Shown here: positions 15,786-30,407 of the stretch, one piece after another
How the letters are laid out: each line of letters starts with the position of its first letter
How positions within the stretch are numbered: the first letter of the stretch is position 1
From: Novosphingobium sp.
GTDB lineage: Bacteria > Pseudomonadota > Alphaproteobacteria > Sphingomonadales > Sphingomonadaceae
DNA: 64,000 nt
Reading direction: 5' to 3'
Assembly (NCBI RefSeq): GCF_030699305.1
Contig: NZ_JAUYNB010000012.1
Span: forward strand, 28,982-92,981
Translations under genes and position numbers: made by a program
Notes under the pieces: generated by a model
Database searches by the model: none
What the model saw: the letters and a program-made list of their open reading frames with translations, nothing else
What the model was told of the DNA's origin: nothing

Positions 15786-15955
15786 TGTCTGCGCCTGACA
15801 AGTCCAGATCGGGCCGGTGGCGATTGTTTCGCAGGATCACCGCGGCAAGGGCGTTCCGACCCTTCGGGGGTGGGTCGGACGACTGGTTCGCAGCACTCCT
15901 CCATTCGGATCGCCTCACGGCTGTTGATCCCGAGACGCTGGCCCGGATCCTGTAA
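15785..15955 (+). CDS. Small ORF, 56 residues, coupled to the gene upstream
   Basis: Begins on the last base of the preceding stop (TGATG), runs for 56 codons and ends at TAA. N-terminal half is basic (SRSGRWRLFRRITAARAF), C-terminal half acidic-hydrophobic (DDWFAALLHSDRLTAVDPETLARIL). The overlap and composition support a real coupled gene, but I know no family. Its stop codon lies inside a sigma promoter motif for the next unit. Confidence 0.45.
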   Translation: MSAPDKSRSGRWRLFRRITAARAFRPFGGGSDDWFAALLHSDRLTAVDPETLARIL

Positions 15956-15977
15956 CCGCATCCTGGTCCCGAACGAA
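15952..15977 (+). promoter_or_regulatory. SigF-type ECF promoter motif GTAACC-N16-CGAA (copy 1)
   Basis: GTAACC at 15952-15957 and CGAA at 15974-15977, separated by exactly 16 bases, the spacing known for SigF-NrsF promoters of Caulobacter. About 155 bases upstream of the ChrR-like cupin gene at 16138, with a strong hairpin between. A second GTAACC at 16002 has a degenerate -10 (CGTC). Confidence 0.6.
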
Positions 15978-16051
15978 GAGGTGCAGACAAAGATCTCCAC
16001 TGTAACCCCGTTTGCGCAGGCCCCGTCACTACGACCCGGCGAGCCTGCGCC

Positions 16052-16087
16052 GGCCGGCCAGATTGACCCTCATCGGTCTGGCCGGCC
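16052..16087. repeat. Strong inverted repeat in the leader of the cupin gene
   Basis: Perfect 11-bp arms GGCCGGCCAGA and TCTGGCCGGCC with a 14-base loop, located between the promoter motif at 15952 and the GTG start at 16138. No T-run follows, so an intrinsic terminator is unlikely; it could be an mRNA-stability element, attenuator or operator. Confidence 0.65.
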
Positions 16088-16137
16088 ACCCAGCCAGCAA
16101 CTGGCGCTTATGCAGCCATGATCGAGAAGGACTTTCG

Positions 16138-16836
16138 GTGAGAATCAACGCGGATTTTTCGCGGCGCGCGTCGAGCCATGACGAAGACGCGTCGTGGTCT
16201 GCTTCGCCCAGCAAGGGTGTGGAGCGGCGCATGCTGGACCGGATCGGCGACGAAGTGGCACGGGCCACCACGATTGTGCGCTTTGCGCCGGGGAGCACCT
16301 TTGCCGATCATGTGCATGGCGGCGGCGAGGAGTATTTCGTGCTCGAAGGCGATTTTGTCGACGAGGAAGGCTCACACAAGGCGGGCACCTATGTGCGCAA
16401 CCCGCCGTGGTCACGCCACAGCCCCTCGGCACCCGATGGAGCGCTGATCTTTGTCAAGCTCAACCAGTTCGCCACCGATGACAGGTCAGCTGTGGTGGTG
16501 GACACGAGCCAGTTTCGATCCTCACTCGGAGACGACGCACCGGCTGTGGCAAGTCTTGCCCTTCATTGTCATGGGAAGGAAAGTGTCCGGATCGAGGTCT
16601 GGCAAGCCGATGTCGCTATCGACCATTGGGGACACGGTGGACTCGAAATCCTCGTACTCGATGGCGAGTTCATCGAAGCCGGAGACAGTTACACGCGGCA
16701 TTCCTGGTTGCGTCTCCCGCCGTCCGAACCGTTTGTCTCGCGTGCTGGGAAAAGCGGTGTGCGCATGCTGGTCAAATCCGGACATCTTTCCGAATTGATC
16801 GGGAAGGACGACCAGCGACGTAAGCAACAGATTTGA
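16138..16836 (+). CDS. ChrR-like double-cupin domain protein
   Basis: About 232 residues from GTG 16138, which has AAGGA seven bases upstream. Two cupin modules: residues about 40-110 with GSTFADHVHGGGEEYFVLEGDFVDEEG (metal ligands H-x-H...E...) and residues about 125-215 with DHWGHGGLEILVLDGEFIEAGDSY. This is the C-terminal domain type of ChrR anti-sigma factors, but the N-terminal sigma-binding zinc domain is missing, so it is not itself expected to bind a sigma. Possibly senses or degrades an oxidised compound. The SigF-like motif upstream would place it in the stress regulon. Confidence 0.75.
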   Translation: MRINADFSRRASSHDEDASWSASPSKGVERRMLDRIGDEVARATTIVRFAPGSTFADHVHGGGEEYFVLEGDFVDEEGSHKAGTYVRNPPWSRHSPSAPDGALIFVKLNQFATDDRSAVVVDTSQFRSSLGDDAPAVASLALHCHGKESVRIEVWQADVAIDHWGHGGLEILVLDGEFIEAGDSYTRHSWLRLPPSEPFVSRAGKSGVRMLVKSGHLSELIGKDDQRRKQQI

Positions 16837-18436: not shown

Positions 18437-18468
18437 CCCGCTTACTTTCGCGCTGGCTCGCGGCCTGG

Positions 18469-18933
18469 TTACAAGCCGAGCTCACTCAGGCCGGGATGGT
18501 CCAGCGGCCTCGGTCCGAGCGGCCAGTGAAACTTGCGTTCGGATTCAGCGATCGGGAGATCATTGATGCAGGCAAAGCGTCGCTGCATCAGGCCTTCGGT
18601 ATCAAACTCCCAGTTCTCGTTCCCGTAGGAGCGGAACCAGTTACCGGAATCATCGTGCCATTCGTATGCGAACCGGACCGCAATGCGATTACCAGCAAAC
18701 GCCCAGATTTCCTTGATCAGGCGATAATCGAGTTCGCGGATCCATTTGCGGGTCAGAAAGGCCTCGATCTCTGGGCGTCCGTTCACGAATTCGGAGCGGT
18801 TGCGCCACTGGCTTTCAGGTGAGTAGGCCAGCGCGATGCGCCCAGGCTGCCGAGTGTTCCAGGCATCCTCGGCCGCCCGGACCTTGGCGCGTGCGGTTTC
18901 GGCGGTGAATGCGAACTCGGGGGTATCGGTCAT
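18469..18933 (-). CDS. NTF2/SnoaL-like protein (DUF1348 family)
   Basis: 154 residues, matching DUF1348: [72 protein letters not shown], and the C-terminal [15 protein letters not shown] cone-shaped cytoplasmic fold often used for isomerase or hydrolase chemistry on small ligands; function of the family is not settled. In a presumed operon with the isochorismatase-like and crotonase genes. Confidence 0.88.
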
Positions 18934-19953: not shown

Positions 19954-19979
19954 GTAACCTCTGCTGCAGATCGACCGAA
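19954..19979 (+). promoter_or_regulatory. SigF-type ECF promoter motif GTAACC-N16-CGAA (copy 2), bufferin operon
   Basis: GTAACC 19954-19959, 16-base spacer, CGAA 19976-19979, about 50 bases before bufA1. This is the motif known from Caulobacter for SigF, whose regulon includes the bufferin operons, so autoregulation of this operon by its own sigma gene is expected. Confidence 0.85.
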
Positions 19980-20030
19980 CTGGGGGGTGTGAGGGGAACG
20001 ACCCCCACGTCAGATTCGAAAGGCTTGCTC

Positions 20031-20330
20031 ATGAAGAATACGACTGGAATCGCCGCCGCCGCTGCGACGCTCGCCGCTGCCGCCCTCCTGGCTGCATCGC
20101 CTGCTGCGGCTGCGGGCGAAGGTGCTGGCGCCAAGGAAAAGTGCTACGGCGTCGCACTGAAGGCCAAGAATGACTGCGCCGCCGGCCCCGGCACCTCCTG
20201 CGCAGGAACCTCGACCGTCGACTACCAGGGCAACGCCTGGAAGTTGGTGCCCGCCGGAACCTGCTTGCAACAGGGCGGGACGCTCGAAGCGCACGCCGGC
20301 AGCGCCAAGCCGGTGCCGCGGCGCGGCTGA
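20031..20330 (+). CDS. bufA1: Bufferin-1 precursor (DUF2282, copper-binding RiPP)
   Basis: 99 residues. Signal peptide with an Ala-rich core ([23 protein letters not shown]), then the BufA1 core with four conserved cysteines in [19 protein letters not shown] and PAGTC, with the shared segment [10 protein letters not shown] between. In Caulobacter the BufB-BufC enzyme converts core cysteines into thiooxazole-type heterocycles that bind copper in the periplasm. Start is ATG 20031; the in-frame extension upstream contains the promoter. First gene of a seven-gene set ending with nrsF. Confidence 0.92.
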
Positions 20331-20378
20331 AACTCTCCACCCGCCTCCCAGAAGGGCTGAAGCCCTCGGGTCGCATGG

Positions 20379-21305
20379 ATGCTGGCTGACATGAACCTCC
20401 CGTCAGATCTGCCCCCCTTGCCGGGAATCGGATTGAAGCCGCAGCACTACTCTGCGGTGCTTCAGCCCGTGTCAGCCAGCATTTTGCCGCCAGCGCCGGT
20501 TCCGGCCTGGTTTGAAGTTCATCCGCAGAATTACTCTGGCGCGGGCGGTCCGCCACATCGCTGGCTGACTGCCATCGCGGAGCGCTTCCCCTTGAGCTTC
20601 CACTCGGTCGGTCTGTCGCTCGGCAGCGCAGGCGGAGTTGACGTGGCCGAGCTCGAGCAGCTTGCGGCGCTGTGCAAGCGCTACGAGCCGGCTTCGGTGT
20701 CGGATCATCTCAGCTGGAGCGGAAGCGCCAACAATCGCTATCCCGATCTCCTGCCGGTGCCCTATACCGAGGAAGCCCTCGGGCATTTCGCCCGGCAGAT
20801 CGACCGCGTGCAGGACCGGCTCAAGCGCCGCATTCTGATCGAAAACCCCTCGCGCTATCTCGCCTTCGCCCGCGACGACATGAGCGAGGCGCAGTTCCTT
20901 CACTTGCTCTGCCACCAAACCGGTTGCGGCATTCTCCTCGACATCAACAACATCGAGGTTTCCGCCACCAATCTCGGCCTCGACGCGCAAGCGATGATCG
21001 ATTCGATCGATCCGAGCCTCGTGGGCGAAGTTCATCTGGCGGGCCATGCCCGGGAGGAGCACCCGGATGGCGTCCTTCTGATCGATGACCACGGTTCGGC
21101 CATCTCCGAAGTGACCTGGGCGCTCTTCGCCCGCTTCGCCGCCCGCGCTGGCCGAAAGCCGGTCCTGATCGAATGGGATACCGATGTCCCCGATTACGCC
21201 GTACTGCTGGGAGAAGCGGCCAAGGCCGAGGCGATCATGCAGGGACAGACGCGTTTCGCGTCGCTGGACGCACTTCCGCTGGATCAGGTTCATGCTTGCG
21301 CTTGA
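20379..21305 (+). CDS. bufB: MNIO-family (DUF692) multinuclear iron oxygenase, bufferin maturase
   Basis: 308 residues (an alternative start is the Met at 20391). TIM-barrel metal-ligand segments are present in order: FHSVGLSLG, VSDHLSW, IENPSRYLAF, GILLDINNIEV, GEVHLAGHARE, LLIDDHG and IEWDTDVPDY. The family uses two or three iron ions to oxidise Cys residues of the precursor peptide. The stop overlaps the bufC start by 14 bases. Confidence 0.93.
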   Translation: MLADMNLPSDLPPLPGIGLKPQHYSAVLQPVSASILPPAPVPAWFEVHPQNYSGAGGPPHRWLTAIAERFPLSFHSVGLSLGSAGGVDVAELEQLAALCKRYEPASVSDHLSWSGSANNRYPDLLPVPYTEEALGHFARQIDRVQDRLKRRILIENPSRYLAFARDDMSEAQFLHLLCHQTGCGILLDINNIEVSATNLGLDAQAMIDSIDPSLVGEVHLAGHAREEHPDGVLLIDDHGSAISEVTWALFARFAARAGRKPVLIEWDTDVPDYAVLLGEAAKAEAIMQGQTRFASLDALPLDQVHACA

Positions 21306-22053
21306 TCAGGTCCAGGCGGCCATGATGCAGGCGCTCGATCATGGCCCCGAGTTTCTGCCGGATCGGCTTTTTGCAGGAGCCCATGCGCGCGTGCTGGCGG
21401 GCATGAAAGTTCATGCCAATACGATCAGTCACGCCCGGCTTGTCGCGCTGGAGGACACGTTTCCGCGCGTGCTCGCCCTGCTGGGCCAAGCGCGCTTCAA
21501 TGAACACTCCCGGTTGTATATCCATCAACCGGGAGTGACGGCAAAGACCCTGGCAGGCATCGGGGAGGCTTTCCCGGGCTGGTTGGCCACGTCTGACGAA
21601 GCAGGCGCAGCAGTTGATCTGGCGCGGTTCGAGTGGCTCTGGCTGGAAGCCTATCATGCCCGAGATGCCGTTCCGTTGCGCCTTGCCGATCTTGCCGGGC
21701 TAGGTGAACAGGCGCTTCTCGACCTGGCCATCGCGGCGCATCCTTCCGCATCGATCGGGACATTCGATCGCAGCGTGCATGAGGCAATCGGCGTGGAAGT
21801 GGCCGGTCTTGTCGAAGCGCCGGCAATTCTGGTCGTCAGGCCCGAGGCCGATGTTCTCGTTTCGCCGGCAAGCGCGGCCATGCGGGCGATCTTCGCAACG
21901 CTCAAAGATATTCAGGTCATCGGTAACCTTCTGGGCCACTTCGACGAACCTGACTGTAAGGATCGACTGTCGTCCGACGACTTTATGGCGGCGCTGATCG
22001 CGCTGCTCGAAGCGGGCGCCCTGATCCGGGCGGAAAGACGACAGGTGGAATGA
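21292..22053 (+). CDS. bufC: Bufferin maturase partner (DUF2063/HvfC type)
   Basis: About 253 residues from ATG 21292. The N-terminal DUF2063 domain is visible ([39 protein letters not shown], of which the key part is [18 protein letters not shown]), with the winged C-terminal recognition-type region after. It presents the precursor to BufB. Overlaps bufB upstream, and the doxX gene downstream by ATGA, so stoichiometric translation is likely. Confidence 0.9.
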
Positions 22054-22511
22054 TGGACCGGATACTCAGATTCTACGACCGGATGGTTGCTTTGGTCAGC
22101 AATTGCAGACTGCAAAACTTGACCTTGCTCTTTACACGCATCGCGCTCGCCGGTGTGTTCTGGCGGTCGGGCCGCACCAAGGTCGATGAAGGGAGCTGGT
22201 TTTCGATCAGCGACAACACCTACTTCCTCTTCCAGGAGGAATACAAAGGCATGCCCCTGCCGAGCGATCTCGCTGCGGTCTTGGCGACGGTCTCGGAGCA
22301 CCTGTTCCCGATCCTGCTGGTGCTCGGCCTGTTTACACGCCTTTCCGCGGGAGCCCTGCTGGGCATGACGCTGGTGATCCAGATCTTCGTCTATCCTGAG
22401 GCCTGGTGGCAGGTGCATTCACTGTGGGCGGCATTGGCGCTGGTGCTGATTGTGCGCGGCGGTGGCAGCATCAGCCTTGACGCGCCGCTGGGACGTCGCC
22501 GGACAGCATGA
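22050..22511 (+). CDS. DoxX-family membrane protein of the bufferin operon
   Basis: 153 residues, four membrane segments, with the family element [21 protein letters not shown] and [31 protein letters not shown]. DoxX proteins regularly accompany MNIO RiPP operons; a quinone-linked redox or export role has been suggested but not shown. Coupled on both sides by four-base overlaps (bufC and the sigma gene). A second DoxX-like gene closes the Cys-peptide operon at 28978. Confidence 0.9.
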
Positions 22512-23032
22512 GGGCCGACGAGCCAACGCTCGCCCGTCTGATGGGACAAGCGCAGGCTGGCGACAAGCAGGCCTACGCGGTCCTACTGGGCGAATGCCAG
22601 CGCTGGCTGCGGTTCTATTTCGGACGACGGATTGCGCCTTCGCAGCTGGATGATCTGGTTCAGGAAACCTTGCTGGCATTGCATCACAAGTTAGCCACCT
22701 GGGATGCAACGCGCGCGTTCCTGCCCTGGCTGGCGGCGATCGCTCGTTACCGCTGGGTCGATCACTTGCGCCGGATCTACCGTGCCGACGAAACGGAGCT
22801 TGCCGACGAACTGGCGGGCGCGGACGAAGAACCCGCCATTGCTGCCCGGATCAGCCTCGAGCGATTGTTCGCCCAGCTGCCGCAGCCGCAAGTCAGGGCG
22901 ATCGAACTGGTCAAGATCGAAGGCCTTTCGGTGTCCGAGGCGTCCAGAGCCTGCGGACAGAGCGAGAGCCTGATAAAGGTCAACATTCACCGCGGGCTGA
23001 AAAAGCTCACCGCGATGATCGAGAAGGCGTGA
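22508..23032 (+). CDS. sigF: ECF sigma factor, SigF type (paired with NrsF)
   Basis: 174 residues: sigma region 2 ([20 protein letters not shown] and [19 protein letters not shown]) and region 4 ([44 protein letters not shown]). The start overlaps the doxX stop by ATGA; the anti-sigma gene overlaps its end. In Caulobacter the same SigF-NrsF pair responds to metals and oxidants and drives bufferin genes. Four promoter motifs in this window fit its known target. Confidence 0.92.
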
Positions 23033-23694
23033 AACCGATGTCCCGTGATACCCCAAACTCCACCGGCGCCCTGATTGCCCAGCTGGTCGATGGCCTCGAG
23101 CCGGTGCGGCCGCTGCGCTTATCAAGCGGGATGGGATTCGCGCTGGCCGGACTTGGCGTGACCCTCGCCACCGTGGCCCTCATGTTCGGCGTCCGCCCGG
23201 ACGTGCTCGCCGGGCGGTTCGATCCCGTGTTCCTGCTGGCGACGGGTCTGTTCCTAGTGCTTGGGCTAGCATCCGCCGTCACGGTCATCGTCATGAGCCA
23301 GCCGCGCGTGGGCAGCGATCATGGCGGATGGTTGTGGGCCGCTGCCATGACGGGACTATTGCCCGTCGCCGCCGCCATCATCGGCTTGGGGAAAGGTACG
23401 AGCGCCATTTCGGCGACCGCCGTGGAGCATGGCCTCGATTGCCTGGTGATCGGCAGCGGACTTGCGTTCATGACGTTTGCTGTACTTGTCTGGTGGCTTC
23501 GAAGAGGAGCGCCGACCTCGACCGAACGCGCTGGTCTCCTTACCGGCGTGGCTGCGGGCAGCTTCGGTATCTTCGCCTTTTCGTTCCACTGCATCTACAG
23601 CGACATCGTCCATATCGGCCTGTGGCACAGTGCCGTCGTAGTGGTGTGTGCTGCCATCGGCAGGGTTGCGGTGCCGCCGATGATCCGTTGGTAG
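23029..23694 (+). CDS. nrsF: NrsF (DUF1109) transmembrane anti-sigma factor
   Basis: 221 residues, six membrane segments, with two conserved cysteines in HGLDCLVIG and FSFHCIYSD, the pair implicated in signal sensing in the Caulobacter homologue. GTG start overlaps the sigma stop (GTGA). It should hold the sigma at the membrane until metal or oxidant modifies the cysteines. Confidence 0.92.
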   Translation: MKPMSRDTPNSTGALIAQLVDGLEPVRPLRLSSGMGFALAGLGVTLATVALMFGVRPDVLAGRFDPVFLLATGLFLVLGLASAVTVIVMSQPRVGSDHGGWLWAAAMTGLLPVAAAIIGLGKGTSAISATAVEHGLDCLVIGSGLAFMTFAVLVWWLRRGAPTSTERAGLLTGVAAGSFGIFAFSFHCIYSDIVHIGLWHSAVVVVCAAIGRVAVPPMIRW

Positions 23695-23951: not shown

Positions 23952-23984
23952 CATTGCGGGCAAACTTCGATTGATCGGCATGGC

Positions 23985-25106
23985 ATGAAGCGACGTATCA
24001 TTCTGGCAGGCGGCGGCCATGCCCATCTGGCAGTCCTTGGGGACTGGGCCAAACGACCGTTGCGAAATACAGAGCGATGGCTCGTCACGTCGTCGCGGCA
24101 TACGGCCTATTCCGGTATGCTGCCGGGCTGGCTGGCCGGCAACTACCGGGCCAACGATCTGCTGATCGACCTCAAGCCGCTGGCCGAACGCGCCGGTGCC
24201 AGGCTGCATCTGGCCGATGTCATCGGGCTCAATACAGCCCGCAAGATGCTCACCCTGTCGTCGGGTGAGGAACTGGAGTTCGATCTTCTTTCACTGGCGA
24301 CGGGTGGCGAGACGGACATCTCGAGCCTGGCGACGCTGGGCGACAGGCTTCTGCCGGTAAGACCGGTTGGCCTGTTCATGGAAAGGTGGTCCGCGTTTCT
24401 TGAGCGGGCTGCGCTGGCCTCAACGGTCAACGTGGCGGTCGTTGGCGGCGGCGCGGCAGGCGTGGAACTGGCCATGGGGGTGGAAAGCGCGATCCGCGGC
24501 TTGTTCAGGAATGCCCGTGTGGCGCTTGTAACCCCGGGTGAAGGATTCCTCGTGGGCCACGCGCCACAAGTTCTCACACGAGCGCTTGAGGAACTGGCGA
24601 AGCGAAGGATCGACGTGCACTTCGCGCAAGCCGCGGGGACGGAAGAGGGTTTTCTGCTGTCCAACGGCCTCCACCTTTCCGTGGACTGCGCAATCGCGGC
24701 GACCGGCAGCCGGGCGCCGCGCTGGCTGGCGCGATCGGGCCTCACCTGCAGCGCAGCGGGTTTTATCGCCGTCAGTGGAGACATGCGCAGCATATCCCAT
24801 CCCTCCATTTTCGCGGCCGGAGACATCGTCGATCGGGTCGACCGGAACCTCGAGCGATCCGGGGTTCATGCCGTGAAAGCTGGGCCGGTGCTGGCCGCCA
24901 ACCTGCGCGCCGCGATCGACGGTACCGCCCCTGCGCGGTACCAGCCCCGAAACCGCACGCTCTACCTCCTCGCTTTGGGCGACAAGCGTGCAATTGTCTC
25001 GTGGGGCCGGTTTGTTGCCATCGGCAATTGGGCCTGGCGCATCAAGGATTGGATCGACCGCAGCTTTGTCGCTCGTTACACCCAGCCTGCCCAGGCGGGA
25101 CGATGA
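23985..25106 (+). CDS. FAD-dependent pyridine-nucleotide oxidoreductase (NDH-2/SelD-N-domain type)
   Basis: 373 residues from ATG 23985. FAD-binding opening IILAGGGHAHLAVLGDW is the signature of the subgroup found fused in front of selenide-water dikinase, here unfused. Second dinucleotide fold: VNVAVVGGGAAGVELAMG. FAD C-terminal motif: HPSIFAAGDIV. No redox disulfide is seen. Probably passes NAD(P)H electrons to a membrane quinone or small acceptor. First gene of the operon that also holds nrtS and an ECF/anti-sigma pair. Confidence 0.85.
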   Translation: MKRRIILAGGGHAHLAVLGDWAKRPLRNTERWLVTSSRHTAYSGMLPGWLAGNYRANDLLIDLKPLAERAGARLHLADVIGLNTARKMLTLSSGEELEFDLLSLATGGETDISSLATLGDRLLPVRPVGLFMERWSAFLERAALASTVNVAVVGGGAAGVELAMGVESAIRGLFRNARVALVTPGEGFLVGHAPQVLTRALEELAKRRIDVHFAQAAGTEEGFLLSNGLHLSVDCAIAATGSRAPRWLARSGLTCSAAGFIAVSGDMRSISHPSIFAAGDIVDRVDRNLERSGVHAVKAGPVLAANLRAAIDGTAPARYQPRNRTLYLLALGDKRAIVSWGRFVAIGNWAWRIKDWIDRSFVARYTQPAQAGR

Positions 25107-25113
25107 GGGGACC

Positions 25114-25332
25114 ATGGCAGGATTACTGAGCCACATTCTGTCCCGGCCGGTCATGACGGGGGCAATCAAGGTGTCCCTGTTTGTCGGAACCTGCCTCAAC
25201 GCGATCAACCAGGGCTCGGCCCTCTGGCACGCTAGCGGGATCGAATGGGGCAAGGTGCTGCTCAACTACGCAGTCCCCTACCTTGTCTCGAGCTACAGCG
25301 CCGCCAAGGCTCGTCAGACTCTGGAGGGCTGA
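25114..25332 (+). CDS. nrtS: NrtS-type small nitrate/nitrite transporter
   Basis: 72 residues with two membrane segments. The family pattern is clear: GAIKVSLFVGTCLNAINQGSAL and KVLLNYAVPYLVSSYSAAKA (compare the NrtS 'I-N-Q-G' and 'P-Y-x-V-S-x-Y' motifs). ATG 25114 has GAGGGG upstream. Ends one base before the sigma gene ATG, so it is part of the same operon; why a nitrate/nitrite importer sits here is unexplained. Confidence 0.85.
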   Translation: MAGLLSHILSRPVMTGAIKVSLFVGTCLNAINQGSALWHASGIEWGKVLLNYAVPYLVSSYSAAKARQTLEG

Positions 25333-25935
25333 ATGGAACAAATAGCCAGCCAAGTCCCCGATTTTGCCGCTGCCGATCCGGCGTTCCTCGCCCGTGTTCG
25401 AGATGATATGCTCCGGTTTGCCCGGCTTCAGCTTGGCAGCGACGACGAGGCTGAGGACGCGGTGCAGGAAGCACTGGCCGGCGCTTTCAAGAACGCGTCC
25501 AACTTTCGGGGCGAGGCAGCGCTCAAGACCTGGATCATCGCCATTTTGAAGAACAAGGTTGCCGACATTCTGCGGCAACGTCAGCGCCGCCCGATCAACG
25601 CCAGCCAGCTGCAGGGGCCTGATCAGGAAGGAGCCCTGCCCGAACTGTTCGACCGCAAGGGCATGTGGCGCGATGCTTCCCGGCCAGCGCGCTGGGAAGA
25701 TCCGGAAGCCGCTTTGCACTCGAGCCAGTTCCTGGCCGTTTTCGATGCCTGTCTCAACCGGCTGCCACCCCAGCAAGGCCGGGTTTTCATGATGCGTGAG
25801 GTCGTCGAACTTGAGACGCAGGAAATCTGCAGCGAACTCGGACTGTCGATCTCGAATGTCCACGTCATCCTGCATCGCGCCCGCCTCGCGCTGCGCACCT
25901 GCCTGCAACTTCACTGGTTCCAAGAGGGGGCCTGA
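25333..25935 (+). CDS. ECF RNA polymerase sigma factor (second, with zinc-finger anti-sigma)
   Basis: 200 residues. Region 2: RFARLQLGSDDEAEDAVQEALAGAFKNASNFRG and ALKTWIIAILKNKVADILR. Region 4: RLPPQQGRVFMMREVVELETQEICSELGLSISNVHVILHRARLALRTC, followed by the C-terminal LHWFQEGA. This profile matches the ECF group paired with very short zf-HC2 proteins. Probably activates its own operon and the genes at 26187 and 30555 through GTAAGG-N15-CGAC. Confidence 0.9.
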   Translation: MEQIASQVPDFAAADPAFLARVRDDMLRFARLQLGSDDEAEDAVQEALAGAFKNASNFRGEAALKTWIIAILKNKVADILRQRQRRPINASQLQGPDQEGALPELFDRKGMWRDASRPARWEDPEAALHSSQFLAVFDACLNRLPPQQGRVFMMREVVELETQEICSELGLSISNVHVILHRARLALRTCLQLHWFQEGA

Positions 25936-25937
25936 TC

Positions 25938-26129
25938 ATGATGAACTGCCATGATGCCACCTTTCTGATGTCGCAGAGCCGTGAGCGGCCCCTGACATTC
26001 TCGGAGCGGATGAAACTGCGCCTCCATGTCGGCATGTGCCGCGGGTGCGCGAATTTCGAACGACAGCTGCCGCAGCTCGGCCAGGCTGCAAAGGTCTATG
26101 CCGCCAAGGCCGAGCACAAGGATGTGTAA
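25938..26129 (+). CDS. Short zinc-finger (zf-HC2) anti-sigma factor
   Basis: 63 residues. Zinc ligands in NCHDATF and LRLHVGMCRGCANFERQ (H-x3-C-x2-C), with no transmembrane or effector domain, so it is a soluble anti-sigma of the ZAS type. Follows the sigma gene by two bases. Release of zinc on thiol oxidation or metal displacement is the usual trigger. The next promoter motif overlaps its stop codon region. Confidence 0.88.
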   Translation: MMNCHDATFLMSQSRERPLTFSERMKLRLHVGMCRGCANFERQLPQLGQAAKVYAAKAEHKDV

Positions 26130-26150
26130 GGAAGCCAGCGGTCAACCGAC
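26126..26150 (+). promoter_or_regulatory. ECF promoter motif GTAAGG-N15-CGAC (copy 2)
   Basis: GTAAGG at 26126-26131 (overlapping the anti-sigma stop codon) and CGAC at 26147-26150, spacer 15. The start codon of the TVP38/reductase fusion lies 36 bases after the -10. Confidence 0.75.
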
Positions 26151-26186
26151 CAAGCGGCAACAGCAATTTCGATCAGGAGCTATTTG

Positions 26187-28337
26187 TTGAAACGTATTGC
26201 CGTTGCCAGTCTGCTTGTGATCGGCCTTGCCGCATGGTTCCTGCTCGATCTCGGGCAGTATCTGACGCTCGATGCACTTAAGGCGCAGCAGGCAGCGGTC
26301 GAGGGTTTCTATCAGGCCAACCCGCTGCTGGTTCTGGCGGCCTTTTTCGCCATCTACGTGATCCTGACCGCGCTTTCCGTTCCTGGCGCGGCGATCTTGA
26401 CGCTTGGCGCAGGGGCGGTCTTTGGCGTGACAACCGGCACGCTCGTTGTCTCTTTTGCCTCGTCCATCGGCGCGACGCTTGCCTTTCTTGCCTCGCGCTA
26501 TCTGTTCCGTGATGCCGTCCAGTCCCGCTTTGGAGCCCGTTTGCGCTCGGTGAACGAAGGTGTGGCGCGCGATGGTGCGTTCTACCTGTTCTCGCTGCGC
26601 CTTGTCCCTGTCTTCCCGTTCTTCGCGGTCAACCTGCTGATGGGGCTGACCCCGATCCGGACGTGGACCTATTACTGGGTAAGCCAGCTGGGCATGTTCC
26701 TGGGCACGATAGTCTACGTCAATGCCGGGACACAGCTGGCGCGGATCGACGCACTGTCCGACATTGCCTCTCCCGGGCTGCTGGCTTCGTTCGCTGCGCT
26801 TGGTGCGCTGCCATGGGTGGGGAAGTGGATCATGGCTGCCATCAGGCGGCGACGCGTCTATGCGCGGTGGCAGCGCCCCGCGCGGTTCGACCGCAACCTG
26901 GTTGTGATTGGTGGCGGTGCCGCAGGACTGGTTTCGTCGTACATTGCCGCAACGGTCAAGGCGAAGGTGACGCTGGTCGAAGCCTCCAAGATGGGCGGCG
27001 ATTGCCTCAACTATGGCTGCGTCCCGTCCAAGGCGCTGATCAAGTCGGCAAAGGTTGCTCATCAGATGCGCCATGCCGAAGCCTACGGGCTCGATCCCGC
27101 CGAGCCGGGATTCAGCTTCAAGGCTGTCATGCAGCGCATTCACGACGTGATCGCTGCCATCGAACCCCATGACAGCGTCGAGCGCTATGCCGGCCTCGGG
27201 GTCGATGTCGTGAAGGGCTATGCGACGATCATCGATCCCTGGACGGTCGAGATCGCGCGCGATGACGGAACGACGCAGCGGCTGACGACACGTTCGATTA
27301 TCATCGCGGCGGGCGCGGCCCCGTTGGTGCCCCCGCTTCCGGGAATCGAGGATAGCGGATACCTGACGAGCGACACGCTATGGGAAGAGTTCGCCAAGCT
27401 CGACGCCATTCCGCGCCGGATCGTGGTCCTTGGCGGCGGACCGATCGGGTCGGAGCTGAGCCAGGCCTTCGCCCGGCTTGGAGCGGAAGTAAGCCAGGTC
27501 GAGATGGGTCCTCGTTTGCTGCCGCGCGAGGACGCCGATGTCGCCGAGATTGCGCGTAACGCCCAGGAAGCCGCTGGGGTAAGGGTGCTGACCGAGCACA
27601 AGGCCTTGCGCTTCGAGCGGCATGGAGACCAGCGCGTACTCGTCGTCAGTCATCAGGACATCGAACAGGTCCTGCCTTATGACGCCGTCATCATGGCCGT
27701 CGGGCGCAAGGCGCGGCTTTCCGGCTATGGCCTGGAGGATATCGGGATCGAAACCGAGCGTACAGTCGTCACCGATGATTACCTCGCGACGCTGTACCCC
27801 AACATCTACGCCGCCGGAGACGTCGCCGGGCCTTACCAGTTCACTCACACCGCATCGCACCAGGCCTGGTTCGCCAGCGTCAACGCACTGTTCGGCCAGT
27901 TCTGGCGGTTCAAGGCCGACTACCGGGTCATTCCCTGGACCACCTTCATCGATCCCGAAGTGGCGCGCGTCGGGCTCAACGAGCAGGAAGCGCGCGAGCA
28001 GGGTGTGGCCCACGAAGTCACGGTCTTTCCGATGCACGAGCTCGATCGCGCGATCGCGGAAAGCGCCACCCAGGGCTTCGTCAAAGTTCTCACGCCTCCC
28101 GGCAAGGACCGTATTCTTGGCGTCACCATCGTCGGCGATCACGCCGGTGAGCTGCTGGCCGAATATGTGCTGGCGATGAAGCACGGACTTGGGCTGAACA
28201 AGATCATGGCAACGATCCACACCTATCCGACCATGGCCGAAGCCAACAAATATGCGGCGGGCGAGTGGAAGAAGAAGCATGCGCCCGAAGGCCTGATCCG
28301 CTTCGTGGAACGCTATCATGCGTGGCGTCGGGGCTGA
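26187..28337 (+). CDS. Fusion: TVP38/TMEM64 (VTT) membrane domain + MerA-like disulfide oxidoreductase
   Basis: About 716 residues from TTG 26187 (AGGAG seven bases upstream; TTG 26184 is the alternative). Residues 1-230 form a VTT/DedA-like domain (GAAILTLGAGAVFGVTTGTLVVSFASSIGATLAFLASRY, key part FASSIGATLAFLASRY, and LRLVPVFPFFAVNLLMGLTPI). Residues about 235-716 form a class-I disulfide reductase: VVIGGGAAGLVSS, redox pair in GGDCLNYGCVPSK (about Cys273/Cys278), VVLGGGPIGSELSQAFARLG, YAAGDVAG, and the dimer interface TIHTYPTMAEANK. The C-terminal Cys pair of true mercuric reductases is absent, so Hg(II) is not the evident substrate. A membrane-linked thiol or dye reductase for stress defence is likely. 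Confidence 0.9.
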   Translation: MKRIAVASLLVIGLAAWFLLDLGQYLTLDALKAQQAAVEGFYQANPLLVLAAFFAIYVILTALSVPGAAILTLGAGAVFGVTTGTLVVSFASSIGATLAFLASRYLFRDAVQSRFGARLRSVNEGVARDGAFYLFSLRLVPVFPFFAVNLLMGLTPIRTWTYYWVSQLGMFLGTIVYVNAGTQLARIDALSDIASPGLLASFAALGALPWVGKWIMAAIRRRRVYARWQRPARFDRNLVVIGGGAAGLVSSYIAATVKAKVTLVEASKMGGDCLNYGCVPSKALIKSAKVAHQMRHAEAYGLDPAEPGFSFKAVMQRIHDVIAAIEPHDSVERYAGLGVDVVKGYATIIDPWTVEIARDDGTTQRLTTRSIIIAAGAAPLVPPLPGIEDSGYLTSDTLWEEFAKLDAIPRRIVVLGGGPIGSELSQAFARLGAEVSQVEMGPRLLPREDADVAEIARNAQEAAGVRVLTEHKALRFERHGDQRVLVVSHQDIEQVLPYDAVIMAVGRKARLSGYGLEDIGIETERTVVTDDYLATLYPNIYAAGDVAGPYQFTHTASHQAWFASVNALFGQFWRFKADYRVIPWTTFIDPEVARVGLNEQEAREQGVAHEVTVFPMHELDRAIAESATQGFVKVLTPPGKDRILGVTIVGDHAGELLAEYVLAMKHGLGLNKIMATIHTYPTMAEANKYAAGEWKKKHAPEGLIRFVERYHAWRRG

Positions 28338-28358: not shown

Positions 28359-28384
28359 GTAACCAAAGCTGCTTCAGGCACGAA
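28359..28384 (+). promoter_or_regulatory. SigF-type ECF promoter motif GTAACC-N16-CGAA (copy 3), Cys-peptide operon
   Basis: GTAACC 28359-28364, 16-base spacer, CGAA 28381-28384. The first ATG of the Cys-rich gene is only about ten bases after the -10, so its message would be nearly or fully leaderless, or translation begins further in (Met 28424). Confidence 0.8.
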
Positions 28385-28393
28385 CAAGAGTCT

Positions 28394-28741
28394 ATGGGCC
28401 GTCTCAAGCTACTCGTGTTGGCCATGCTTTTTGCAGTGGTAGGCCCGCTGCCGGGTCTGGCGGCCGTCCAGACAAGCGATCATCGTCCGGCTGCCACATG
28501 CACGCAATGTTGCGACGACCAATCCAGTGGTTGCGCGGCAGAGTTTACGGCCTGCAAACGTATATGCGCCGCAGCAGTCATCCCCGTGTCTCTCGCGCTT
28601 GAAAGTCATCGCGCTGTTGGAGTTCGCGGTTCCCGGGCGTCGCAATCACTCGAATCCATCTCCGAAAAGCCGGTTCCGCCCCCGCCCAGGGTGCGGTCCG
28701 CGCGACTACAACCGAAAACACATTCTGGAGAATTGATATGA
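28394..28741 (+). CDS. Secreted Cys-rich protein of unknown function
   Basis: 115 residues. Signal peptide MGRLKLLVLAMLFAVVGPLPGLAA, then a Cys cluster TCTQCCDDQSSGCAAEF-TACKRICAAA: six cysteines spaced C-x2-CC-x6-C-x6-C-x3-C. The C-terminal half is Ser/Pro/Arg-rich and has no cysteine. I do not recognise a family; Cys spacing and SigF-type promoter suggest periplasmic metal binding. Stop overlaps the next tiny gene by ATGA. Confidence 0.65.
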   Translation: MGRLKLLVLAMLFAVVGPLPGLAAVQTSDHRPAATCTQCCDDQSSGCAAEFTACKRICAAAVIPVSLALESHRAVGVRGSRASQSLESISEKPVPPPPRVRSARLQPKTHSGELI

Positions 28742-28869
28742 AACTCATCACCAAGATCATCGCTGCCTCGGCCCTTTTGACGCCTGGCATGGCCTTTGCG
28801 GCCAGTCCGTCGACCTTTGCCGAGGCCTGCTGTGCGTTGGCCGCTTGCTGCGGACTGCCGTGCTGCTGA
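28738..28869 (+). CDS. 43-residue secreted peptide with three CC pairs
   Basis: Signal peptide MKLITKIIAASALLTPGMAFA, then a mature part of about 22 residues ending EACCALAACCGLPCC: six cysteines, all as adjacent pairs. Start overlaps the stop of the Cys-rich gene by four bases (ATGA), with GGAG eight bases upstream. Below usual size limits, so normally missed. Composition points to metal binding or a modified peptide comparable to bufferins, which it does not resemble in sequence. It could be a substrate of BufB/BufC in trans; that is speculation. Confidence 0.65.
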   Translation: MKLITKIIAASALLTPGMAFAASPSTFAEACCALAACCGLPCC

Positions 28870-28882
28870 TGGCATGAGAGGG

Positions 28883-28912
28883 GGGCTGGCGGATGGAAGC
28901 GTCCGTCAGCCC
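28883..28912 (+). repeat. Hairpin between the CC peptide gene and the DoxX-like gene
   Basis: Arms GGGCTGGCGGA and TCCGTCAGCCC (one G-U pair) with an 8-base loop, directly after the peptide stop. No T-run follows. It may protect the upstream mRNA or partially terminate, giving more peptide than DoxX-like protein. Confidence 0.55.
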
Positions 28913-28977
28913 TCAGCAATTTCCAATTCCCGCGCTGGTCGGCTGCGCACACATGCCGCGACAGAAGGAGTGAATCC

Positions 28978-30381: not shown

Positions 30382-30407
30382 TTCGGATCGAGATGCGGGC
30401 TGGTTAC
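30382..30407 (-). promoter_or_regulatory. SigF-type ECF promoter motif GTAACC-N16-CGAA (copy 4)
   Basis: On the minus strand: GTAACC complement at 30407-30402 and CGAA complement at 30385-30382, spacer exactly 16. Located 35 bases before the small ORF start (30347) and the P60 hydrolase. Lies back-to-back with the GTAAGG motif for the TonB receptor. Confidence 0.75.

Follow-up and report, generated by a model that had tools for sequence, protein, structure and literature searches.

Few metal buffers act in the periplasm, and annotation misses very small genes. The question raised by a frame of 43 codons lodged between a cysteine-rich gene and a DoxX-like gene in this Novosphingobium DNA is whether it is a gene at all and, if so, what its product does and with which partners. 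All coordinates are positions in the window, by which we mean the whole 64,000-nt stretch analysed. Read on the forward strand from 28738 to 28869, the frame translates as MKLITKIIAASALLTPGMAFAASPSTFAEACCALAACCGLPCC, followed by a stop codon. Residues 1-21 resemble a Sec signal peptide ending in AFA, as judged by eye, leaving a predicted mature part of 22 residues, ASPSTFAEACCALAACCGLPCC; six cysteines fall within the final 13 residues of the peptide, every one of them paired. Cleaved after residue 21, the mature part would have a calculated monoisotopic neutral mass of 2090.806 Da when reduced and 2084.759 Da with three disulfides. A six-frame translation of the window yields 708 ORFs of 30 aa or longer, and no other has three CC pairs among its 20 C-terminal residues. 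The initial annotation had described a secreted-type peptide with three CC pairs that was unlike known bufferins and metallothioneins. The frame and the pairing of its cysteines were confirmed, export is predicted, and searches of Pfam and NCBIfam matched it to no family, bufferin and metallothionein families included; Pfam likewise finds no DUF2282 domain in it. A PDB sequence search returned a single chance-level match (E 1.3), and an AlphaFold2 run on 60 sequences gave a model (mean pLDDT 64.6, pTM 0.27) that was too poor for a fold search.

Since the frame has only 43 codons and carries no Pfam or NCBIfam annotation, it might be an open frame that arose by chance between genes and encodes nothing. 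Searched on its own against 5.8 billion proteins, the peptide had four relatives (70-88% identity); with a profile built from 19 family members, the number at E<=1 rose to 146. Of these, 120 are listed and, with the query, make up the 121 rows examined. Homologues sharing the frame and the Cys pairs, the check that the initial annotation had set itself, were recovered: 78 of the 121 rows (query plus matches listed) have three C-terminal CC pairs, and 54 of those 78 show the exact arrangement CCx4CCx3CC with 0-1 trailing residue. A short form of the 38-aa type, ending in CG[LM]PCC and bearing one CC pair, accounts for 41 of the 121 rows and other forms for two. Among the matches listed, no row carries a Pfam domain, and nearly all named rows are annotated merely as 'hypothetical protein'. 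Against the two closest relatives, codon changes in the peptide are mostly synonymous (synonymous:nonsynonymous, 14:4 for window-L015 and 18:4 for window-L050; 6:1 and 9:1, respectively, in the mature part only), and at distant loci they stand at 13:16 (L017), 14:11 (L049) and 12:15 (L053), all as raw counts, not dN/dS. With frame, cysteines and stop position kept across many relatives, the chance-frame reading was rejected as next to impossible, and these comparisons support the view that the peptide is a genuine unit under purifying selection. Among the open-licence papers listed by literature searches, no title or abstract start described the peptide, which may be described elsewhere.

The family is patchily distributed. 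In 397 genomes of the window's own taxonomic family, 12 matches resolved into six confirmed three-pair members, the window's included, each in a different genome (6/397), and one confirmed short form. In 396 genomes of the order, 33 matches yielded the family peptide in ten, eight of them three-pair, and class- and phylum-wide scans added one more confirmed member outside the order (genome G1256), the remaining matches of those scans containing no CC peptide. Carriers at the genome level include an Erythrobacter MAG and Sphingobium sp. CECT 9361, and carriers at the protein level, among the matches listed, include Caulobacter, Blastomonas and Qipengyuania. A tblastn search of 72,556 plasmid records with the window peptide gave no matches; one relative, P0048, is named as plasmid-borne by its source. 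The short form (38 aa, APEAVHALAKACGLPCC, one CC pair) is found at L009 and L020 (G010) and in part of P0063-P0121; L020, the sole short-form locus inspected, lies behind a PhoB-like gene, without a leader gene of the kind described below and without a sigma-F motif. Longer relatives of 59-69 aa, in which CC pairs are followed by CxxC repeats (L076 and L093, P0122-P0130), form a separate small group with an upstream leader ending in EPPPPRS, and occur in another taxonomic family of the class. A variant peptide, CCDCGSCDMPDCDMPCC, is encoded at L087 (1441-1700, +) behind a leader ending in PPDPPPPRAR. The 21 loci compared below leave out this PPPPR-leader variant, the short form at L025 and weak genome-scan matches unconfirmed as family members.

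The initial annotation had proposed the DoxX-like gene as partner of the peptide. A DoxX tblastn match adjoins the peptide in L017 and L049 and in none of the other eight of ten loci searched, and DoxX was rejected as an obligatory partner; so was a MerA/lipoamide-dehydrogenase-like flavoprotein, present in four of ten other loci searched. It is instead the upstream gene that recurs. In the window, this gene (28394..28741, +) encodes 115 aa with a hydrophobic N-terminus, six cysteines, a CxxxC motif and a PPPPR motif near the C-terminus, and matches no Pfam or NCBIfam family. The codons of its CxxxC (CKRIC, 28553..28567, +), a putative metal site, and of its PPPPR (28676..28690, +), a putative ribosome-slowing motif, are separated such that the second motif comes 36 residues after the first. 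We defined a leader-like ORF as one of 70-175 aa with a hydrophobic stretch, at least three cysteines and PP in the last 35 residues, ending between -120 and +15 of the peptide start. By this rule a leader-like ORF lies directly 5' of the peptide in 17 of 21 loci, as against 94 of 5981 random ATGs, and when loci are grouped by common neighbours a leader is found in eight of the nine groups (L020 was not clustered). The constant partner is thus not DoxX; the upstream leader is the recurring partner of the peptide across unrelated neighbourhoods. What the initial annotation had called simply a 'Cys-rich gene' has, to judge from its motifs, the anatomy of a CutF-like regulatory leader, a point that it missed.

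The body of the leader changes quickly while its geometry is retained. Identity to the window leader is 49% in L015 and 29% in L017, the figures for the adjoining flavoprotein being 86% and 79%, and leader codons differ by 20 synonymous to 59 nonsynonymous changes between the window and L015 (14:14 between L015 and L050). CxxxC and PPP(P)R are each present in 13 of 17 leader-like ORFs, four ORFs being without CxxxC. Measured between the last CxxxC and the last PPP, the spacing is 36-37 residues in ten of the 17 leaders, that is in ten of the 13 having CxxxC; the others have spacings of 39, 41 or 20 residues or are without CxxxC. Three of the ten that keep the spacing are close kin (window, L015 and L050), and L048, L054, L056 and L079 are not. 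Two leaders look weak or decayed: that of L016, with PP only, and that of L051, with 72 aa and no CxxxC. These patterns suggest that the leader body is near-neutral while the CxxxC-PPP spacing holds, as a nascent-chain sensor would need.

Two known systems offer precedents for such an arrangement. CutF of Rhodobacter capsulatus has a signal sequence, a C69xxxC73 motif and an end reading PEPEGPPPRL, and altering either motif lowers CutO activity by ~90% (PMC8456105). It has been proposed that copper on the CxxxC of nascent CutF delays export, so that the ribosome opens a stem-loop before cutO; most CutF-like genes that carry Cys motifs stand before copper genes, some CutF-like genes overlap the one that follows, and their modes of action seem to differ (PMC9973294). 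CutF, from the cutFOG operon, and the window leader share a similar size, a signal-peptide-like start, CxxxC (at C69xxxC73 in CutF), a PPPR end, poor sequence conservation and, encoded downstream, an exported protein (predicted in the window's case). The filter used to collect CutF-like genes was <150 aa, an N-terminal signal peptide and PP within the last 15 residues (PMC9973294). The window leader has the size (115 aa), the N-terminal hydrophobic stretch (by a simple composition rule) and the central CxxxC (CKRIC), but falls just outside the PP filter because 16 residues follow PPPPR, and we therefore call it CutF-like as a working term, not a formal CutF member; elsewhere only 1-7 residues follow the Pro motif (L050, L048, L052, L053, L054, L056, L079, L043 and L076). 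The second precedent is CruR, a DUF2946 upstream ORF of Bordetella pertussis in which CXXC and RAPP lie 45 residues apart and which acts in the opposite way to CutF, shutting off a TonB transporter; its authors note that ~30 residues of nascent chain are hidden in the ribosome tunnel (PMC9426467). Both CruR and the window leader keep a set distance between a Cys motif in the nascent chain and a C-terminal Pro motif, although the motifs and distances differ (CxxxC/PPPPR, 36 apart, in the window leader). Given ~30 residues in the tunnel, a fixed CxxxC-PPP distance of 36-37 residues would be sensible. The window leader lacks the CXXC and RAPP pair, and Pfam finds no DUF2946 (PF11162) in it at E<=0.1.

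How the two genes are connected differs from CutF. The initial annotation had described coupling to the upstream gene through ATGA; leader and peptide genes do overlap by ATGA in the window, and so they do in L015 and L017, but this is not general, as only these three of the 17 leader-bearing loci have it. A Shine-Dalgarno-like TGGAGA of the peptide gene lies within the final codons of the leader (28726..28731, +). CutF controls a multicopper oxidase through a stem-loop that hides the Shine-Dalgarno sequence, whereas in the window the downstream product is a 43-aa peptide and a CutF-type sequestering stem-loop found no support on comparison with shuffled sequences (Shine-Dalgarno pairing 0.63 versus 0.70 shuffled; 52/60 shuffles as high). 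Such pairing stands out in two of 21 loci only, L053 (0/60 shuffles as high) and L052 (3/60). Beyond the peptide, a strong terminator-like hairpin is found immediately 3' of the stop codon (28878..28918, +; -31.7 kcal/mol, 80-nt z -3.8), and hairpins after the peptide are strong in most loci (80-nt z of -2 or lower in 19/21). An intrinsic terminator was nonetheless rejected for the window, as the hairpin has no T run and a consensus scan calls none; read-through into DoxX is therefore possible.

Transcription appears to belong to a locally clustered regulon. A SigF-type promoter had been claimed for the unit, and GTAACC-N16-CGAA, identical to the sigma-F motif published for Caulobacter (PMC3511200), is indeed present at 28359..28384 (+), ahead of leader and peptide and 379 nt 5' of the peptide start. 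Matches to GTAACC-N15..17-CGAA number six in the window, where shuffled sequences would give 0.15. The whole genome, with 16 matches versus 23 for the reversed control, shows no excess, which makes the enrichment a local one; seven of the 16 have the exact N16 spacing, and six of these seven fall within the window. Across loci, the motif was found upstream in 11 of 21 (ten exact, with a mismatch, GTAACG, in L051) versus 152 of 5981 controls, and was not found in the other ten; in the leaderless L081 and L083 it lies at -85 and -83, immediately before the peptide. The window also encodes a Caulobacter-type sigF (22508-23032, +; Pfam ECF sigma regions) and nrsF (23029-23694, +; NrsF PF06532, E 6.8e-41), and this pair (22508..23694) is likely to provide the transcription control of the peptide unit, which, with its exact motif at 28359-28384 and sigF-nrsF in the same genome, has the marks of a sigma-F regulon member. 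In Caulobacter, sigma-F responds to Cr and Cd and is freed through the thiols of NrsF (PMC3511200). A bufferin operon (within 19954..22511, +; Pfam) follows its own sigma-F motif (19954-19979, +) and comprises DUF2282 (20031-20330), MNIO (PF05114, 20379-21305), DUF2063 (21229-22053) and DoxX (22050-22511) genes; it is likely co-regulated with the peptide unit. Four further N16 matches, near a ChrR-like cupin ORF (16012-16836; motif 15952-15977, +), just before an enoyl-CoA hydratase ORF (18447-18472, -), within the DUF2063 gene 5' of DoxX and sigF (21923-21948, +) and 5' of a C92 amidase gene (30382-30407, -), suggest a local sigma-F regulon.

The sigma gene nearer to the peptide, at 25333, is a second ECF factor, not sigF. 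It belongs to a second ECF operon (23982-28337), kept in L015, L017 and L050 and partly in L049, which encodes a SelD-N-terminus-like flavoprotein, an NrtS-like 73-aa membrane protein, the ECF sigma, a zf-HC2 anti-sigma and a 717-aa VTT plus mercuric-reductase-like fusion.

Bufferins (DUF2282 with MNIO, DUF2063 and DoxX, in the Caulobacter sigma-F regulon) resemble the peptide in being small, Cys-containing and predicted to be exported, and in having a sigma-F motif; the peptide differs in having no DUF2282, no adjacent modifying enzyme, another Cys layout and a leader of its own. It could still be a RiPP precursor, in which the bufferin MNIO or another enzyme makes thiooxazole-type groups from the cysteines and the modified product binds metal. 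The bufferin operon with its MNIO gene is 7 kb away under the same motif, and MNIO genes occur in 11 of 14 family-bearing genomes versus five of 12 other genomes of the family, a suggestive co-occurrence. However, three of the 14, all complete, have no MNIO gene (G269, G137 and G1256), no MNIO gene adjoins the peptide in the Pfam-scanned neighbourhoods, and in the window the precursor domain is absent and the MNIO gene sits in the separate operon (20379-21305), so that we regard this as a minor possibility. Of the proposal that this is a metal-binding or modified periplasmic peptide, metal binding and export are plausible, and modification by the bufferin enzyme cannot be a requirement family-wide.

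Bacterial metallothioneins such as SmtA/PmtA and MymT are very Cys-rich small peptides. The peptide is like them in being small, very Cys-rich and likely to bind soft metal, and unlike them in its signal peptide (by eye), in having six cysteines only as CC pairs within 13 residues and in having no Pfam match. Neighbouring genes bear on which metal this may be. In L056 the leader-peptide pair is flanked on one side by copABCD-type genes (CopD, CopC, CopB and multicopper oxidase) and on the other by an OEP-HlyD-ACR (CusCBA-type) efflux operon, and in L091 a multicopper oxidase is ~3 kb away; ORF lists read for L018, L048 and L093 contained no obvious metal genes. Copper is accordingly the likeliest metal in our analysis, because of the CutF-like leader and these two copper neighbourhoods, and uncertain because Cr and Cd are the metals for which a response of Caulobacter sigma-F has been shown (PMC3511200); Cd or another soft metal is possible. 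The same architecture aimed at another soft metal (Cd, Hg, As or Zn) would fit that response as well as the cation-efflux genes near L054 and L092 and a MerT-like protein, below the Pfam cut-off, at L090, but sits poorly with the copper genes adjoining L056 and L091 and with the tendency of CutF-like leaders with Cys motifs to precede copper genes (PMC9973294). We consider it improbable as an account in its own right.

A different role for the same cysteines would be thiol-redox buffering, or service as an oxidant target. Vicinal CC pairs are able to form strained disulfides, which could be made and broken in the periplasm under chromate or oxidant stress. The release of Caulobacter sigma-F by Cr and Cd through NrsF thiols (PMC3511200) and the flavoprotein in syntenic loci are in keeping with such a role; the CutF-like leader and copper-gene neighbours point instead to metal, and the flavoprotein is found in only four of ten other loci searched. 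On this evidence a redox function is unlikely.

We favour, with moderate confidence, a small exported thiolate peptide for soft metal, probably Cu(I), with sigma-F driving its transcription and a CutF-like sensor controlling its translation. We infer the following course from sigma-F transcription through nascent-chain metal sensing, export and Cu(I) binding to buffering beside bufferins. Metal stress would release sigma-F from silencing by NrsF, and sigma-F would transcribe leader and peptide from the GTAACC-N16-CGAA observed ahead of them. The leader would be made and exported, its CxxxC leaving the ribosome ~36 residues ahead of PPPPR, in line with the observed spacing. By analogy with CutF and CruR, metal on CxxxC would alter the dwell of the ribosome at PPPPR and with it the use of the next start codon, in either direction. 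The peptide, cut after AFA as predicted, would be 22 residues long and chelate metal through six thiolates, acting alongside the bufferins as a minimal exported metallothionein-like buffer of periplasmic metal. For the broader reading we see an even chance: that these peptides are a new family of exported mini-metallothioneins (~22 residues, six thiols in three vicinal pairs) under two-layer metal control, in which sigma-F would supply the message and a CutF-like nascent chain would meter its translation by the free metal outside the cytoplasm.

Although it has no Pfam or NCBIfam entry, the family is conserved and linked to two layers of metal response that are already known. If Cu(I) is bound, CutF-like sensors would have a thiolate buffer among their outputs in addition to oxidases and transporters, and the sigma-F regulon would contain a second kind of peptide beside bufferins. 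A spacing kept at 36-37 residues while the rest of the leader drifts offers a handle on nascent-chain metal sensing; if the proposal is true, a natural metal-sensing arrest peptide would set the amount of a metal-buffering peptide a third its size.

Two further small ORFs were noted beside leader-peptide pairs. Just 5' of the pair in L054 (10578-10766, -) is a small exported-looking, Cys-rich ORF of 62 aa containing CCKDCCKDK. In L056 (10335-10664, +) a small signal-peptide-like ORF with a Pro-containing end lies directly before the OEP efflux gene, and is perhaps a second leader.
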